Assembly (NCBI RefSeq): GCF_016863615.1
Contig: NZ_BOPF01000066.1
Span: forward strand, 1-36,396
Length of the DNA: 36,396 bases
Direction of reading: 5' to 3'
Source: Virgisporangium aliadipatigenens
GTDB lineage: Bacteria; Actinomycetota; Actinomycetes; Mycobacteriales; Micromonosporaceae
Shown here: positions 17,663 to 34,300 of the stretch, in pieces
Layout of the letters: every line of letters starts with the position of its first letter
How positions within the stretch are numbered: the first letter of the stretch is position 1
Program-made: the position numbers and the translations under genes
The notes under the pieces: model-generated
The model's input: only the letters and a program-made list of their open reading frames with translations
What the model was told of the DNA's origin: nothing
Databases searched by the model: none

Positions 17663-18874
17663 TCAGACGCGGGTCGCCGCGAGCACGCCGACCACGTCGC
17701 CGATCACCACCACCGCCGGCGGTTTCACCTGTGCGGCGGCCTCGGCCACCGTTGCCAGCGTGGCGTGCGTGACGTGTTGGACGCTCGTCGTCGCGTCCGC
17801 GACCACCGCTGCCGGGGTGTCGCCTGAGCGGCCGCCGGCCATCAGGGCCTCGGCGATCAGTGGGAGGTTCTTCAGGCCCATCAGGACGCAGATGGTGCCC
17901 TTGAGCCTGCCGAGGGCGGACCAGTCGACCTTGGACTCCGGGTGGCCGGGGCGCAGGTGTCCGGAGACGACGACCAGTTCGTGGGCGACGCCGCGGTGGG
18001 TCACCGGGATGCCGGCCGCCGCCGGAGCGGCCAGCGCGCTGGTCACCCCGGGCACCACGGTCACCGGCACGCCAGCCTCGGCGCATGCGAGCAGTTCCTC
18101 GCCGCCGCGGCCGAACAGGTACGGGTCGCCGCCCTTCAGCCGCACGACGCGGTGGCCGGCGAGGGCGCGTTCGACCAGGACGGCGTTGATCTCCTCCTGG
18201 GTGCGGGCCGGCCCGTAGGGAATCTTGGAGGCGTCCACCACCTCGACGTCCGGCCGCAGCTCGTCCAGCAGCAGCCCGGGCGCGAGCCGGTCGACGACCA
18301 CCACGTCGGCGGCCGCGAGGAGGCGCCGGCCCTTCACGGTGATCAGTTCCGGGTCGCCGGGGCCGCCGCCGACGAGTGCCACGGCTCCCTTGCCCCGTTC
18401 GGCCTCGCCCGCCGGTTCGTCGGCGGTCGCCAGGTACTCCCGGATCGCGTCGCGCACGGCCACGGCCCGCTTCGGCGCGCCGCCGCCCAGGACGGCGACC
18501 GTCACCGGGCCGTGGCGGGTCACGGCCGGCGTCCAGGCGGTCGCGGCGTGGCGGTCGTCGGCGCGCACGCAGAAGACGCGGCGTTCGCGGGCCGCCGCGC
18601 TGACGGCCGCCGCCGCGAGCCGGTCGTCGACCGCGACGTGCACCAGCCACGCCCCGTCCACGTCGGACGCCTCGAACCGGCGGTCGATCCAGGTGATCCG
18701 GCCGGCGTCGACGAACCCCTGCAGCGCCGGCGTGAGCGCGGGCGACACGAGCACGACCCGCGCGCCGGCGTCCAGCAGGGCCGGCACCCGCCGGGTGGCC
18801 ACCGATCCGCCGCCGACGACCAGCACCCGAAGGCCCTCGAGTTTCAGCCCCAGCGGATAGAGCACGCCGCTCAT
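17663..18874 (-). CDS. cysG: siroheme synthase / uroporphyrinogen-III C-methyltransferase
   Basis: A 403-residue CysG-type enzyme. The N-terminal ~150 residues form a Rossmann precorrin-2 dehydrogenase/ferrochelatase domain (VLVVGGGSVATRRVPALLDAGA). The C-terminal ~245 residues form the SAM-dependent methyltransferase domain, with VALVGGGPGDPELITVKG, VVRLKGGDPYLFGRGGEE, VVPGVTSALAAPAAAGIPVTHR and VVSGH. Together they convert uroporphyrinogen III to precorrin-2 and onward to siroheme, or supply precorrin-2 to cobalamin synthesis. The start ATG (18872-18874) overlaps the stop of the second repeat mini-ORF as ATGA and has GAGG 7 nt upstream, provided by the repeat. It is the last gene of the cobC-cobT operon. 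Confidence 0.92.
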   Translation of the reverse strand: MSGVLYPLGLKLEGLRVLVVGGGSVATRRVPALLDAGARVVLVSPALTPALQGFVDAGRITWIDRRFEASDVDGAWLVHVAVDDRLAAAAVSAAARERRVFCVRADDRHAATAWTPAVTRHGPVTVAVLGGGAPKRAVAVRDAIREYLATADEPAGEAERGKGAVALVGGGPGDPELITVKGRRLLAAADVVVVDRLAPGLLLDELRPDVEVVDASKIPYGPARTQEEINAVLVERALAGHRVVRLKGGDPYLFGRGGEELLACAEAGVPVTVVPGVTSALAAPAAAGIPVTHRGVAHELVVVSGHLRPGHPESKVDWSALGRLKGTICVLMGLKNLPLIAEALMAGGRSGDTPAAVVADATTSVQHVTHATLATVAEAAAQVKPPAVVVIGDVVGVLAATRV

Positions 18875-18957
18875 GCCGTCGCCTCGCTTCGCTCACCGGC
18901 GCCATGAGACGCGGAGCGCACAGTACTGACGATTCGCTCCCGCAAGCGTCCGCTCAT
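18871..18957 (-). CDS. repeat mini-ORF, copy 2 (28 codons)
   Basis: The second repeat unit encodes 28 residues starting MSGRLRERIVSTVR and ending GERSEATA. Its ATG overlaps the stop of copy 1 as ATGA, and its own stop overlaps the cysG start as ATGA. The peptide differs from copy 1 at one residue (Thr27 instead of Ala27). Codon choice is unusual for this genome (CGA twice, TTG, AGT, ACT, TCT, CAT, GCA), with about two-thirds GC at third positions. The frame is therefore probably there to carry ribosomes through the element rather than to make a selected peptide. Whether it is translated is untested. Confidence 0.5.
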   Translation of the reverse strand: MSGRLRERIVSTVRSASHGAGERSEATA

Positions 18958-19040
18958 GCCGCCGCCTCGCTTCGCTCACCGGCGCCATGAGACGCGGAGC
19001 GCACAGTACTGACGATTCGCTCCCGCAAGCGTCCGCTCAT
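18954..19040 (-). CDS. repeat mini-ORF, copy 1 (28 codons)
   Basis: The first repeat unit encodes 28 residues starting MSGRLRERIVSTVR and ending GERSEAAA. Its ATG overlaps the cobT stop as ATGA and its stop overlaps the start of copy 2 as ATGA. The start codon forms the base of the unit's hairpin. The length of 29 codons minus the 4-nt overlap gives the 83-bp period, so repeated duplication keeps the stop/start chain intact. No known domain is recognised in the peptide, which is basic and small. Confidence 0.5.
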   Translation of the reverse strand: MSGRLRERIVSTVRSASHGAGERSEAAA

Positions 19041-20086
19041 TTCTTCGCCACGCCCGCGGAGTCGAACGTCGCCACCTCGCGCAGCACCCGCGCCGCCGCG
19101 GCCACCATCGGCACCGCCAGCAGCGCACCGGTGCCCTCACCCAGCCGCAGCCCGAGGTCCACCAGCGGGGTGAGGCCCAGGTGCGCCAGGGCGAGCGAGG
19201 CACCCGGTTCGACCGAGCGGTGGCCGGCCACCATGGCGCCCACGGCGTCCGGCGCGAACGCCGCTGCCGCCAGCGCACCCGAACAGGCGATCACGCCGTC
19301 CACCACGACCGGCACCCGGCGCGCGGCCGCCCCGAGCATGAACCCGCACAGCGCCGCGTGCTCCAGCCCACCCACGGCGGCCAGAACGCCCAGCGGGTCG
19401 GCCGGGTCCGGCCGGCGCAGTTCCAGGGCGGCCCGCACCGCCGCCACCTTGCGCGCGAGGGTCTCGTCGTCGACACCGGTGCCGCGGCCCGTCGCGTCGG
19501 CCGGCGTCGCGCCGGTGAACGCGGCCACCAGGGCCGCTGCCGGGGTGGTGTTGCCGATGCCCATGTCACCGCCGACGAGCACGAGCGCACCCCGTTCGAC
19601 CAGGGTATGGGCGACGGAGATGCCCACCTCGACGGCCGCGCGGGCCTCGTCGCGCGACATGGCCGGCTCCCGGGCGATGTCGCCCGTGCCGGCGCGGACC
19701 TTGCGCTGCAGCAGCGCCCCGGCCGGGTCGAGCGGCCCGGCGATGCCCACGTCCACGACGGTGACCGACGCGCCGACCTCCCGCGCGAACGCGTTGACCA
19801 CCGCACCGCCGGTGACGAAGTTGGCGACCATCTGTGCGGTCACCTCCTGCGGCCAGGGGGTGACGCCCGCCGCGTGCACTCCGTGGTCGCCGGCGAAGAT
19901 CGCCACTGCGGGATGTGCGGGCTGCGGCGGCGGGCAGGTGCCGGCCAGCCCGGCCAGCCGCACGGAGAGCGCCTCCAGCTCACCGAGCGAACCGGCGGGC
20001 TTGGTGAGCCGGGTGTGCAACGCCCGCGCGGCCTCCATCGCCGCGCTGTCCGGGGGACGGATCTCGGCCAGCGTGCTGTCGATCAT
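19037..20086 (-). CDS. cobT: nicotinate-nucleotide:dimethylbenzimidazole phosphoribosyltransferase
   Basis: A 349-residue CobT enzyme, which forms alpha-ribazole 5'-phosphate from nicotinate mononucleotide and 5,6-dimethylbenzimidazole for the lower ligand of cobalamin. Landmarks are KPAGSLGELE near the N-terminus, IFAGDHGVHAAGVTPWPQEVT, a VGGDMGIGNTTPAAAL phosphate-binding region and LRLGEGTGALLA. The Glu in the last motif is residue 317, matching the catalytic Glu317 of Salmonella CobT. The length is typical. ATG 20086 overlaps the cobC stop as ATGA; its own stop overlaps the first repeat mini-ORF as ATGA. Confidence 0.96.
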   Translation of the reverse strand: MIDSTLAEIRPPDSAAMEAARALHTRLTKPAGSLGELEALSVRLAGLAGTCPPPQPAHPAVAIFAGDHGVHAAGVTPWPQEVTAQMVANFVTGGAVVNAFAREVGASVTVVDVGIAGPLDPAGALLQRKVRAGTGDIAREPAMSRDEARAAVEVGISVAHTLVERGALVLVGGDMGIGNTTPAAALVAAFTGATPADATGRGTGVDDETLARKVAAVRAALELRRPDPADPLGVLAAVGGLEHAALCGFMLGAAARRVPVVVDGVIACSGALAAAAFAPDAVGAMVAGHRSVEPGASLALAHLGLTPLVDLGLRLGEGTGALLAVPMVAAAARVLREVATFDSAGVAKK

Positions 20087-21111
20087 GTCTCTCCAACCTC
20101 CCGGGCCAGGGCCTTCAGAAACGCGTCGCTCGTCGCCGGGTCCCGCACGGCGATCCGCAACCAGTCACCGCCCAGTCCGGGGAACGTGTCCCCGCGGCGC
20201 ACCGCCCAGCCGCCGCTGCGCAACGCCTCCCGGATCCGCGTGCCGTCGGCCACCCGCACCAACACGAACGAACTGGCCGGCGGTCCGGCGACGACGCAGC
20301 CGGGGACGGCGGCGAGTCCGTGGACGAGGTGCGCGCGGTCGGCGGCGAGGCGTTCGGCGATCTCCCGCTCGGCGGCGACGGCGAGCGGTGACGCGCACGC
20401 TACCGCAGCGGCGAGCGCCGGGGTGGAGACCGGCCACAGCGGTGCGGCGGAACTCACGCGCGCGATGAGCTCCGGCGCCGCCACCAGGTAGCCGATGCGC
20501 AGGCCGGCGAGGCCCCAGGTCTTGGTGAGGCTGCGGGTGACCATGAGGCCGGGCAGGTTCCGGTTGCGCACCAACGATTCCGGCTCGCCCGGGACGGTGT
20601 CGGCGAAGGCCTCGTCGACCAGCAGCGCGCGCCCGGGCCGGGCCAGGGCCGCGATGGTCTCCGCGCGGTGCAGCACCGAGGTCGGGTTGGTCGGGTTGCC
20701 GAGCACGACCAGGTCGGCGTCCGCCGGCACGGCGCGCGGGTCGAGGGCGAAGTGCGGCTCTTCGAGCAGGACCCTCTCCACGGGAACGCCCGCCGCGCGC
20801 AGCGCCGCCTCCGGCTCGGTGAACTGGGGATGCACCACGGCAGCCTTGGCGATCGCCAGCCCGAAGGCCACCATCGTGAACGCCTGCGCGGCACCGGCGG
20901 TCAGCAGGATCTCGTCCGGGGTGCGCCCGTGCCGCGCGGCGAGCGCCTCCTTCGCGGCGGTGTCGTCCGGGTAGGCGGCCAGCTCGGTGAGCGACGCGGC
21001 GATCGGCGCGGCGAGCCACTCCGGCATCGGTGCGGAACGGACATTGACCGCGAGATCGACCAGACCGGCCGCAACCTCTCGGTCACCGTGGAACCGCAAC
21101 GCGTCATGCAT
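20083..21111 (-). CDS. cobC: CobC-type PLP-dependent aminotransferase/decarboxylase (Rv2231c-like)
   Basis: A 342-residue fold-type I PLP enzyme of the Rv2231c/CobC group, related to L-threonine-O-3-phosphate decarboxylase (CobD) and histidinol-phosphate aminotransferase. It is placed in making the aminopropanol arm of cobalamin. Visible motifs are VLGNPTNPTS, the cofactor Asp in LLVDEAF (residue 166), and the PLP lysine in SLTKTWGLAGLRIGY (Lys197). ATG 21111 has GAGG 7 nt upstream. It is the first gene of the minus-strand operon cobC-cobT-repeat-cysG and is coupled to cobT by ATGA. No cobalamin riboswitch was recognised in its 144-bp upstream region. Confidence 0.88.
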   Translation of the reverse strand: MHDALRFHGDREVAAGLVDLAVNVRSAPMPEWLAAPIAASLTELAAYPDDTAAKEALAARHGRTPDEILLTAGAAQAFTMVAFGLAIAKAAVVHPQFTEPEAALRAAGVPVERVLLEEPHFALDPRAVPADADLVVLGNPTNPTSVLHRAETIAALARPGRALLVDEAFADTVPGEPESLVRNRNLPGLMVTRSLTKTWGLAGLRIGYLVAAPELIARVSSAAPLWPVSTPALAAAVACASPLAVAAEREIAERLAADRAHLVHGLAAVPGCVVAGPPASSFVLVRVADGTRIREALRSGGWAVRRGDTFPGLGGDWLRIAVRDPATSDAFLKALAREVGET

Positions 21112-31374: not shown

Positions 31375-34300
31375 AAGCCGGCGGGCCGTTCCACATCCTC
31401 ATCAGCTCCGTCACCCGCTCGGGCGGGACGGCCGCCGCGTACAGGTACCCCTGCACCCACGGGCACTCCTGCGCCAACAGCGCCGCCGCCTGATCCGGGG
31501 TCTCGACCCCCTCTGCGATCGTCACCAGATCCAGCCCCGCCGCGAGCTGCAGGACCGCGCCGGTCACGTGCCGCTGCCGCCCCTTCCCCACGGTGAACGA
31601 CCGGTCCAGCTTCAACACGTCCACCGGCAACGTCATCAGGTACGACAGCGACGAGTAGCCCGTCCCGAAGTCGTCGACGGCGATGCGCACCCCGTGCGTG
31701 CGCAGCCGCCGCAGGTCGTCCAGCGCCGTTCCGGCGTCGGTGATCAGCGTGGACTCGGTCAGTTCGATGATCAGCGCGCGGCCGGGCACCCCGGCCGACT
31801 CCATCGCGGCGAGCACCCGGTCGGCGAAGTCCGCCTCGTGCAGCTGGTGCGCGGAGAGGTTCACGGTGACGGCGACGCCGTACCGGTCGTACCAGCCGCG
31901 CACCTGCGCCAGCGCACAGGTGAGGATCCACCAGCCGATCGGCACGATCAGCCCGGTCTGCTCCGCCACCGGGATGAACTCCACCGGCGACACCCGTTCG
32001 CCGTCCGGCCGCCGCCAGCGCAGCAGCCCCTCAGCGGCGACCATGCGGCCGGTGGCCAGTTCGACGACGGGTTGGTAGTGCAGCTCCAGCTCGCCGCGCT
32101 TGAGCGCGTGGCGCAGCCCTTCGGCCAGTTCGTTGCGGCGGATGAGCTTGGCCCGCAGCTCCGGCCGGAACGTCATCACCCGGTCCCGCCCGGCCGCCTT
32201 CGCCGCGTACAGGGCCAGGTCGGCGTCGCGCAGCGCCGCGGCGGGCTGCCCGCCGGCCCGCACGGTCACCAGGCCGGCGCTGGCGGTGAGCACGAGTTCG
32301 CGTTCGTTGATCCGGTACGGCGGGCGCAGCGCGGCGAGCGCGCGTCGGGCCGCCGCCTCCCCCTCCCCGGGCGGGAAGATCGCCGCGAACTCGTCCCCGC
32401 CCGGCCGGGCGATCAGTCGCGCCCCGCCGAGCGCCGCCCGCAGCCGCCCGGCCGCCTCCATCAGCAGCGCGTCGCCGACGACGTGCCCGTGCGCGTCGTT
32501 GACCTCGGCGAACCCGTCCAGGTCAAGCAGCAGCAGGTCGCCGTCGCGGGCACCGGCCCCGAGCCGGGTCAGCAGCGCGGAGCGGCTGGCCAGTCCGGTC
32601 AGCGGGTCGTGGGTGGCGCGGTGGCGCAGTTCGTCGCGGAGGGCGTCGAGGTGGGCGAGATCCGCCGAGGCGCGGCCGAGCAGCGAGGCGACCGTGCCGA
32701 GGCGCACCACGAGCAGGAGTCCGACGGCGGCGCCGAGCAGCGCCGGTATGACCGTTCCCGGAGGTGCTCCGGGGACCAGGACCGGGACGATCGGGACCGC
32801 CACCGCGAGCGAGGCGAAGACCATCAGGCGCCGCCGCGACCACGCCGGGTCGGCCGCGCGCCGCTCGGGCTCCGCGGCCGGGTGCAGGGCCGCCCCCGCC
32901 AGCGCAAATGCGGCAAGCATCCAGAGAACATCCGGAGTACGGCCGCTCGCGAAATCCGTGAAACCGCCGCCGAGGACGCTGATCACGTACGTGAGGTCGC
33001 CCACGACCAGCGCGGAGGCCCCGCCCGCGAGCAGAACGTGCGCCGCCGGAGGCCGCCGCCCGAACCCGACGAGCCGCAGCGTGGCCGCCATGACGACGAG
33101 CCCCAGCAGCACGTATCCGCAGCCGGCGGCGATCTCGACCGGGCTCACACCCGGCGTCCGGACGAACGGCCCCACCACGAACATCCACGCCGGAATCGCC
33201 GCGACGCCGGTGACCAGGGTGGCGTCGACGGCCGCGCCGGGTGGATCGCCGCCCCGCGCCCGCGCGATGACCACGAACCCGGCCGCCAGCAGCGGATACT
33301 GCGCCAGGAACGCCACCCCGGTCCACGACGGCTGCGCGGGCCCACCGGCGGCGGCCTCGATCCCGTTCCAGTACACGGCGGCGCCCACCCACGACGCCCG
33401 CCCGAGCACGATCAGGATCCACCCGCGCAGCTCGTCCGGCCGCCGCCCGAACAGCGCGACCGAGGTGAAGCCCAGCGCGACGAGGTAGCCCAGCGACCCG
33501 GCGAGCTGCCCCACGGGATCCGGCAGGAACCCGGCCATGAACCCCACGGGAACGCCTGCGGCGGCCACGCCGGCCCAGCCCCACCGCCGCAGCACCCCGT
33601 CGACGGCCGCTGCGCCGCCGGCCCCGCGTGCGGCCGGCGCTTCCCGACTCAGCGGCGCGTCGCCGGCCTCCCGAGCGGAACGACCGCTGCGCCCCTGCCG
33701 GGCCGGCTCCCGCACCCCAGCACTGCCACGCGTCTCTCCGCCGGCACCCCGGTCGGGCGACCCGGCTGCACCCCCGGTCGGCCGATCGCGCAGGTCACCG
33801 GGACGCGAACCCGTGACGCCGCCCACCGGCGAACCCGAGCGGCCCGCCCCCCGCTCACCAGGCCCGGCCTGCGCCCCGACCGGCCGCCCGGCTCCGTCAC
33901 GGCCCCGCACCGCCGACCGCCCACGGCCACCGGCCGCACGATCCCGCAGCCCGGCCCCGCCCTCGACACGCCGATCGGCTCCGTCACCCTCACGCGCCGC
34001 CGACCGCCCACGCCCGCTCGACTCCCGATCCGGCAGCCCGGCTCCGCCCTCGGCGGGCCGACCGGGACCGTCACCGTCGCGCACGGCCGACCTCCCACGG
34101 CCACCCGCTGCACGATCGCGCGGCGCCTCCGGGACAGCCCGCTCGCCACCGGGCGAATCGCCACCGGCCGGCCCGGCACCGGCGCCCGCCGGCCGCTCGT
34201 CAACGCCGGCGTCACCGTCACGCGGCGCACCACCACCGGCTCGCCGCGACTCCCCGCCGGTCCCGTCGAACGCGCGCCGCACCGCCTCCCGCCCGGCCGA

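Follow-up and report, generated by a model that had tools for sequence, protein, structure and literature searches.

What kind of sequence can fill the space between two genes of an operon, be repeated there, and still leave a stop-start overlap at every junction of the chain? The question is raised by a stretch of DNA from Virgisporangium aliadipatigenens (Micromonosporaceae; contig NZ_BOPF01000066.1, positions 1 to 36,396), which is referred to here, at its full length of 36,396 nt, as the window. On the minus strand, positions 18867-19040 are filled by two head-to-tail 83-nt units with a period of 83 and identity at 82 of 83 positions, and sequence comparison agrees on this point with an initial annotation made from the letters alone. 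The first TGA of copy 1 is the cobT stop, and the final ATG of copy 2 is the cysG start codon. The 28-codon frame of each copy, the GAGG found 7 nt before its end and the 4-nt ATGA overlap at all four junctions from cobC to cysG, which the same annotation had reported, were each recovered, as was its estimate of about 68 percent for third-position GC (0.68 measured). Copy 1 encodes MSGRLRERIVSTVRSASHGAGERSEAAA, copy 2 encodes a peptide that ends ...EATA, and the codons CGA, TTG, AGT and ACT are present in these copies. The features of the locus are, in the direction of transcription:

20083..21111, minus strand: cobC-like aminotransferase gene (PF00155), ATGA-overlapped with cobT (Pfam)
20083-20086, minus strand: ATGA junction cobC/cobT (sequence, reading frames)
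19037..20086, minus strand: cobT (PF02277), the upstream gene, its stop overlapping the first ATGA (Pfam)
19037-19040, minus strand: ATGA junction cobT/copy 1 (sequence, reading frames)
18954..19040, minus strand: repeat copy 1, an 87-nt ATGA...ATGA frame (83-nt unit plus shared ATGA) of 28 codons plus stop (sequence, translation)
18953..18991, minus strand: copy 1 hairpin, unit positions 50-88, CTCATGGCGCCGG...CGGCGGCATGAG, pairing the final start codon, with GAGG in its upper part (family consensus)
18965..18968, minus strand: GAGG, Shine-Dalgarno-like, 7 nt before the ATG that ends copy 1 (sequence)
18954-18957, minus strand: ATGA junction copy 1/copy 2 (sequence, reading frames)
18871..18957, minus strand: repeat copy 2, an 83-nt unit as copy 1 with one substitution (sequence, translation)
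18870..18908, minus strand: copy 2 hairpin around the cysG start, one pair weakened by a G-to-A change (family consensus)
18882..18885, minus strand: GAGG, Shine-Dalgarno-like, 7 nt before the cysG ATG (sequence)
18871-18874, minus strand: ATGA junction copy 2/cysG (sequence, reading frames)
17663..18874, minus strand: cysG-like gene (PF13241 and PF00590), downstream, starting at the end of copy 2 (Pfam)

The answer that we prefer, with a probability of roughly 0.78, is that the unit is a non-autonomous dispersed repeat which inserts at gene start codons and passes translation on by stop-start coupling, in the manner of the mycobacterial interspersed repetitive unit (MIRU), for which Supply et al. 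1997 is the source given (reference 77 of PMC12548453). Over 79 positions the two window copies show a single difference, and every other 83-nt copy is at least 7 positions away from them, so the tandem pair probably arose by local duplication. By eye, both copies carry a TANNNT motif (TACTGT) that is absent from the commonest unit variant. Elsewhere in the window, positions 33862-34121 hold three imperfect 87-nt direct repeats that are ~76% alike.

A dispersed unit at gene starts

The genome to which the window belongs comprises 10.29 Mb in 112 contigs. When it was searched by BLAST with an 87-nt query, 44 matches were obtained, 39 of them spanning the whole query (40 of the 86 first-look candidates were scored); together with seven further complete copies and one 3' half (L083), the genome contains ~52 units, and the multiple copies expected on the initial annotation's reading are thus present. 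Pattern searches returned 48 matches to the 3' end including the start codon (reversed-pattern control, 1), 50 matches to the 3' body without the start-codon requirement at one mismatch or fewer (reversed control, 0), one of which (L082) was false and was dropped, and 48 matches to the 5' end at three mismatches or fewer (reversed control, 0), including one at C3:63008 that has three mismatches and was counted unread. The copies elsewhere in the genome exclude chance as the source of the window repeat, and their presence at 45 sites rules out local tandem duplication alone.

All 50 copies with both ends in this genome run from RTGA to NTGA, as the ATGA ends of the window copies had led the initial annotation to expect, and all 50 combine an open frame with a length of 2 mod 3. 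Of these, 46 are 83 nt and four are 80 nt long (L148 was measured separately from the other 49), and 19 candidate 3' ends of the whole parse, own and other genera together, stand outside the length counts because no 5' end was assigned to them. The remaining 49 copies correspond to 45 sites, four being tandem pairs, and at every one of the 45 a frame whose third-position GC resembles that of coding sequence begins on the final NTG; the bases behind the final ATGA are GC at 40. The unit is a real, multicopy repeat that inserts at start codons and keeps the reading frame. It had been placed between operon genes, which describes the 30 of 45 sites where an upstream frame, counted if it has 50 or more codons and a third-position GC no lower than 0.75, stops in the first RTGA. 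The other 15 sites have no overlapping upstream gene by this threshold and there the unit is a 5' leader, so the rule is a position before a gene's start codon and not one between operon genes.

The target genes that were looked at are diverse and include the cysG-like gene, an ABC transporter, a DUF993 protein and, from an arginine-type operon, a class-III aminotransferase and a carbamoyltransferase. Two units lie in one operon at L019 (2500-3832), before argD-like and argF-like (PF02729) genes. A further locus, L028, was kept out of the 45 sites; its unit, which has lost the first ATG, forms one continuous frame with another leader, and a further leader lies between this fusion and the gene. 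The chain is intact there (upstream RTGA, fused leader plus unit with a length of 107, GTGA, second leader, ATGA, gene), and at ~2401-2690 on the minus strand a second leader-like repeat (MSEGSTPRCGLD..., VSERSTPRRGLE...GEHR*) flanks the unit on both sides, possibly as a member of another coupler family.

Empty sites, relatives and the conserved frame

In two congeners (G001 and G002), 40 distinct sites were queried by joined flanks or by N-terminal protein, and 40 regions chosen from the hits were fetched. Read by hand, all 23 sites that could be judged show the orthologue beginning with no unit before it, 20 of these empty starts being RTGA; the remaining 17 of the 40 had no readable orthologous start. 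The GAGCGNAGCGR core was absent from all 40 fetched congener loci, and a search of the congeners for the unit at E 1e-6 gave a single copy in G001 and no copy in G002. The 23 unit-free sites place the spread of the copies, on this comparison of loci, after the split from the congener species. The cysG gene of G001 has no cobT before it, so the cobT-cysG position in that genome is not an empty site. When N-termini were compared by eye with unit-free congener orthologues, 12 were longer, often by 1-2 codons, eight were equal, two were shorter and one was unclear, and at two of the 12 longer ones (L009 and L017) the other congener was longer or equal. That the genes behind units are often 1-2 codons longer than their unit-free orthologues hints that the unit may bring AGC behind its ATG.

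Relatives of the unit extend beyond the genus. The pattern GAGCGAAGCGAG-N5-9-ATGAG was found in 56 of 200 genomes of the family and in 17 of 44 genera. A wider pattern was found in 49 of 249 genomes in the order and in 15 of 296 in a phylum sample. Once Micromonosporaceae and a Mycobacterium-like family are set aside, the majority of genomes in the order lack a match, with up to 3 in a few of them. In the 296-genome phylum sample, genomes from beyond the order gave at most 2 matches each to the class pattern, which is barely separable from chance. Three junctions hold units both here and in another genus, namely cobT-cysG, an amino-acid-kinase/class-III-aminotransferase junction that we take to be argB-argD, and the L010/L166 junction, which has a DUF993 protein downstream. 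Units of other subfamilies occupy these shared junctions (L104 in G206 at cobT-cysG, L090 in G193 at the argB-argD-like junction and L166 in G206 at the L010-type junction). Because both congeners lack the unit at the argB-argD-like junction, repeated use of some junctions is suggested.

Most units have RTGAGCGAGCGNAGCGAGCGAATC-like 5' ends and GAGCGNAGCGAGG...NTGAGC 3' ends, and across the family their lengths are 59, 68, 71, 74, 77, 80, 83 and 122 nt. Of 81 units from other genera, whose sites (58 could be parsed) were sampled partly because they are tandem, 80 are 2 mod 3 in length after removal of two false 104-nt units (L068) and resetting of the 5' ends of L047 (to 80 nt) and L154 (to 71 nt). 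The exception is a unit of 81 nt in L066, which fuses in frame with its 72-nt neighbour into one leader. The proposal that any copy number would keep the chain was borne out by tandem periods of 68, 71, 77, 80, 83 and 122, with 32 of 34 neighbouring pairs (own and other genera together) at 2 mod 3, and it extends to differing unit lengths; the two exceptions are L066, with a period of 72 and copies that join into one frame, and L100, with a period of 87 across a run of N that adjoins a doubtful 110-nt unit. Tandem arrays occur as pairs at 4 of the 45 own sites and as 2-4 copies at 17 or more of the 58 other-genus sites, some arrays being split by the parser. Since copies share ancestry, all such sequence counts are not event counts.

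Several loci show how far the unit can vary. At L066 there are three tandem units, two with one extra base, fused in frame into a long leader that still ends in ATGA, and at L070 a 122-nt unit consists of a 74-nt unit with 48 extra bases, in frame. Minimal forms of 26 or 35 nt, running RTGA to RTGA, are found at L156, L157, L165 and L163 (MSERSEADA*, VSERSEAAA*, MSERSEVAR* and VSERSERSEAAA*), and the 26-nt forms look like deletions between two GAGCGNAGCGAG blocks. The GAGCGNAGCGAG sequence is strongly conserved as DNA, and the 5' block and the GERSE block are conserved.

The frame itself appears to be under constraint. When each distinct change was counted once, synonymous changes were not enriched (P 0.13 in the own set, 0.11 in the others), leaving peptide-level selection unsupported. 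In-frame stops were rarer than expected from random placement (P 0.02 own, 0.038 others), the other-genus test being rough in that 80-nt units were compared by position though some carry compensated small shifts. It seems that an open, correctly phased frame matters and that the amino acids do not.

The predicted start-codon hairpin and what it may mean

Folding of the 45 own units with RNAalifold places the final start codon in a stem (CTCA.G.CGCCG with CGGCG.C.TGAG), and the family consensus has a hairpin there, its 10 pairs split into separate blocks on the two sides of a stem that takes in the final ATG. The initial annotation had drawn a 15-bp hairpin in three blocks; the pairing of the final ATG stands above shuffles, and the stem is shorter, with the 10 pairs of the consensus and ~12 around the final ATG of copy 1 folded singly, while copy 2 folded singly has a different minimum-energy fold. 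The final ATG is paired at 0.80 in the own units, compared with 0.41 in unit shuffles (higher in 43 of 45), and at 0.82 compared with 0.45 in 43 distinct other-genus units (higher in 41 of 43). With 36 nt of the gene added the values are 0.79 (own) and 0.81 (other genera), against 0.38 for the start codon at 40 native Virgisporangium junctions without a unit; the unit's first ATG in context is paired at 0.50 and the ATG of the 68-nt class at 0.51. Pairing of the ribosome-site region is no higher in units (0.61-0.63) than at native junctions (0.62), and overall folding energy is slightly below that of shuffles (mean z -0.61 own, -0.87 other genera).

Covariation over the whole stem is, on these alignments, moderate. 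The other-genus set has 27 compensatory cells, compared with 6.4 in shuffles and 8 to 21 in slid stems, and the own set has 2, compared with 0.1 in shuffles and 0 to 3 in slid stems. The clearest sign of the predicted hairpin is the tracking of the start base by its partner, for which A-T was counted 47 times, G-C 10 times, T-A once (a TTG start, L078) and crossed combinations 0 times; in 37 of the 95 units a G stands opposite the start base and is unpaired there. This count covers 45 own 83-nt units, 49 other-genus 80-nt units and L028, with other lengths left out, and a Fisher test on its T/C by A/G part gives 2e-11 when shared ancestry is ignored. Either RNA or single-stranded DNA could be the molecule in which the pairing acts. 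Since simple ATGA overlaps are coupled even where there is no hairpin, the one in the unit may have a role other than coupling.

Taken from sequence and predicted structure, we infer both the movement of the unit and its coupling, which may work as follows. The 28-codon leader would be translated from the ribosome site and start codon that the host gene had before the insertion, or by a ribosome arriving from the upstream gene; the ribosome would open the start-codon hairpin, stop at the TGA within ATGA and reinitiate on the gene, aided by the unit's own GAGG. If the leader is translated and the gene reinitiated in this way, insertion would cost little and the unit could spread and duplicate in tandem, the peptide itself being immaterial. 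Translation probably still passes from gene to gene across the unit. A further-reaching idea, which is possible and which we hold tentatively, is that the unit is a frame-shaped mobile gate that makes translation of the host gene depend on itself and that is an ancestor or sister of the MIRUs. We are equally guarded about the structural part of this idea, in which the unit's own start codon would be locked in the hairpin, its partner base following ATG, GTG and TTG, such that the host gene would be translatable only by ribosomes that read the leader.

It is unlikely that the unit is instead an element of the IS200/IS605 or REP-RAYT type, mobile as single-stranded DNA, whose hairpin and CTCAT-ATGAG pairing would serve Y1 cleavage and not translation. 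No terminal inverted repeats were seen, orientation is strict, the left junction is RTGA and arrays are head-to-tail, all of which such an element would explain, and the hairpin pairs the terminal tetranucleotide with internal sequence, as in the guide and cleavage-site logic of IS608. The Y1_Tnp domain (PF01797) was found in 9 of 31 genomes, 7 of 17 unit-rich compared with 2 of 14 unit-poor by our own grouping, so a link with the unit may exist in other genera. However, the search gave 0 candidates for this domain in the window's genome (G000), where no resident IS200/IS605-type transposase was found, and nine further genomes rich in units likewise gave no match (G174, G190, G206, G074, G118, G127, G089, G361 and G296). 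Moreover, no frame constraint is expected of such an element, yet the units keep to 2 mod 3 in length. The unit may have been moved by a transposase that was present in the past or by an enzyme from a different family.

A host regulatory leader, in which leader frame and start-codon hairpin form a translational switch for joint control of many genes, is a quite improbable alternative. The paired start codon, its co-varying partner base and the conserved 5' and GERSE blocks fit such a switch, but the target genes looked at are diverse and the congeners lack the unit wherever their sites could be read; nor is there a sign of amino-acid selection, which argues against an amino-acid-sensing attenuator. 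A search of window positions 18600-19300 against Rfam gave no match to a described RNA family up to E 1. We give very little credence to a genuine micropeptide family (...GERSEAAA) selected as protein: the frame is open in every both-ended own copy and an ERSE-like ending is common to units of several genera and to MIRU frames, but synonymous changes are unenriched and minimal 26-nt forms (VSERSEAAA*) persist. A DNA site for protein binding or chromosome organization that merely lies near gene starts would account for the DNA conservation of GAGCGNAGCGAG, but is scarcely tenable, as it predicts neither exact start-codon joins at 45/45 sites, nor 2 mod 3 lengths, nor a partner that tracks the start base.

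Comparison with known systems

The repeat that we propose to insert at start codons and hand on translation shares features with several known systems. Like natural ATGA overlaps and bicistronic leader designs, it has a 4-nt overlap for termination-reinitiation and a leader frame that could open a hairpin; unlike these, it is a multicopy unit at sites that are empty in congeners. A terminal hairpin, a tetranucleotide junction and strict orientation are features of the IS200/IS605 and REP/RAYT families, and the unit resembles them in all three and in that no inverted repeats were seen. It differs from them in that units keep frame and sit at gene starts, and in that they occur in a genome in which no Y1 transposase was found.

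The closest comparison is with MIRUs, which underpin tuberculosis strain typing and for which we know of no accepted account of origin or way of moving. According to one published description, MIRUs appear to be mobile and to insert at start codons, and the frame inside them is coupled to the gene at -4 (PMC12548453). Excerpts of other papers give 77- and 53-nt MIRU units in senX3-regX3 and ETR-D (PMC4213456; PMC2453075), and an excerpt of a further one identifies a 77-nt 5' UTR in M. bovis with one MIRU, where M. marinum has a leaderless start (PMC4128351). The MIRU-bearing genomes compared here belong to another family of the order, and their repeats, together with the proteins encoded next to these, indicate that they are probably Mycobacterium. 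These proteins are presumably AcpS-like and RegX3-like, and a response-regulator domain was found in the RegX3-like one.

Both the Virgisporangium unit and the MIRU are short, dispersed, multicopy repeats at start codons (here in ~52 copies of 83 or 80 nt), and both place a frame at -4 to the gene, the former at 45/45 sites, where coupling is predicted from the frames. Both form tandem arrays that keep frame, the MIRU periods of 53 or 77 nt being 2 mod 3, and both have a core, GAGCGNAGCGA, followed by a GGAGG-like stretch and then RTGA, the mycobacterial units being mostly 53 nt (lengths of 40 in the MIRU parse are inner GTGA picks). The frame endings are ..DAERSD.. in the MIRU and ..DAERSE.. 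in the Micromonosporaceae unit. The two differ in length, in the 5' half, in host (mycobacterial in one case, Virgisporangium of the Micromonosporaceae in the other) and in their joins, which are RTGAGC in the Micromonosporaceae unit and mostly RTGAC in the MIRU. The MIRU start codon is paired at 0.36 (16 parsed units, some with a mis-set 5' end), compared with 0.79-0.81 in Micromonosporaceae units; the background for the 0.36 is the 0.38 of native Virgisporangium junctions, which is not a mycobacterial one. Local alignment of the consensus unit with MIRUs gave a core of 19-26 nt in matching place and frame that stands only weakly above shuffles (P 0.012, 0.065 and 0.07); common descent of the two is plausible.

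Within the mycobacterial set, a tandem unit at L127 (G296) is 52 nt long, out of frame and breaks the -4 coupling. By eye, the dinucleotide that follows RTGA is often identical at the two ends of mycobacterial units (for example L098, L111, L120, L126 and L127), and a mycobacterial target duplication longer than 4 nt is possible.

A search of the open literature found no printed account of such repeats outside mycobacteria, and a Micromonospora carbonacea genome note, in the part drawn on here, counts 27 interspersed repeats that it leaves undescribed (PMC4392142). Start-codon insertion and frame coupling are already in print for MIRUs, in the portion of the source cited above (PMC12548453). 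The idea of a portable translational coupler or selfish repeat, with which the initial annotation had explained the window copies, was partly supported and largely right, but it is not new in kind; the apparent novelty lies in a family of such units in Micromonosporaceae and in the hairpin at their start codon. This related-looking family offers independent comparative material on MIRUs, with its many lengths, its empty sites and its covarying start codon. The comparison can indicate which parts of such a unit must stay (ends, frame and hairpin) and which may go (peptide and middle), and with its start codon paired the unit opens the coupling idea to a direct test.
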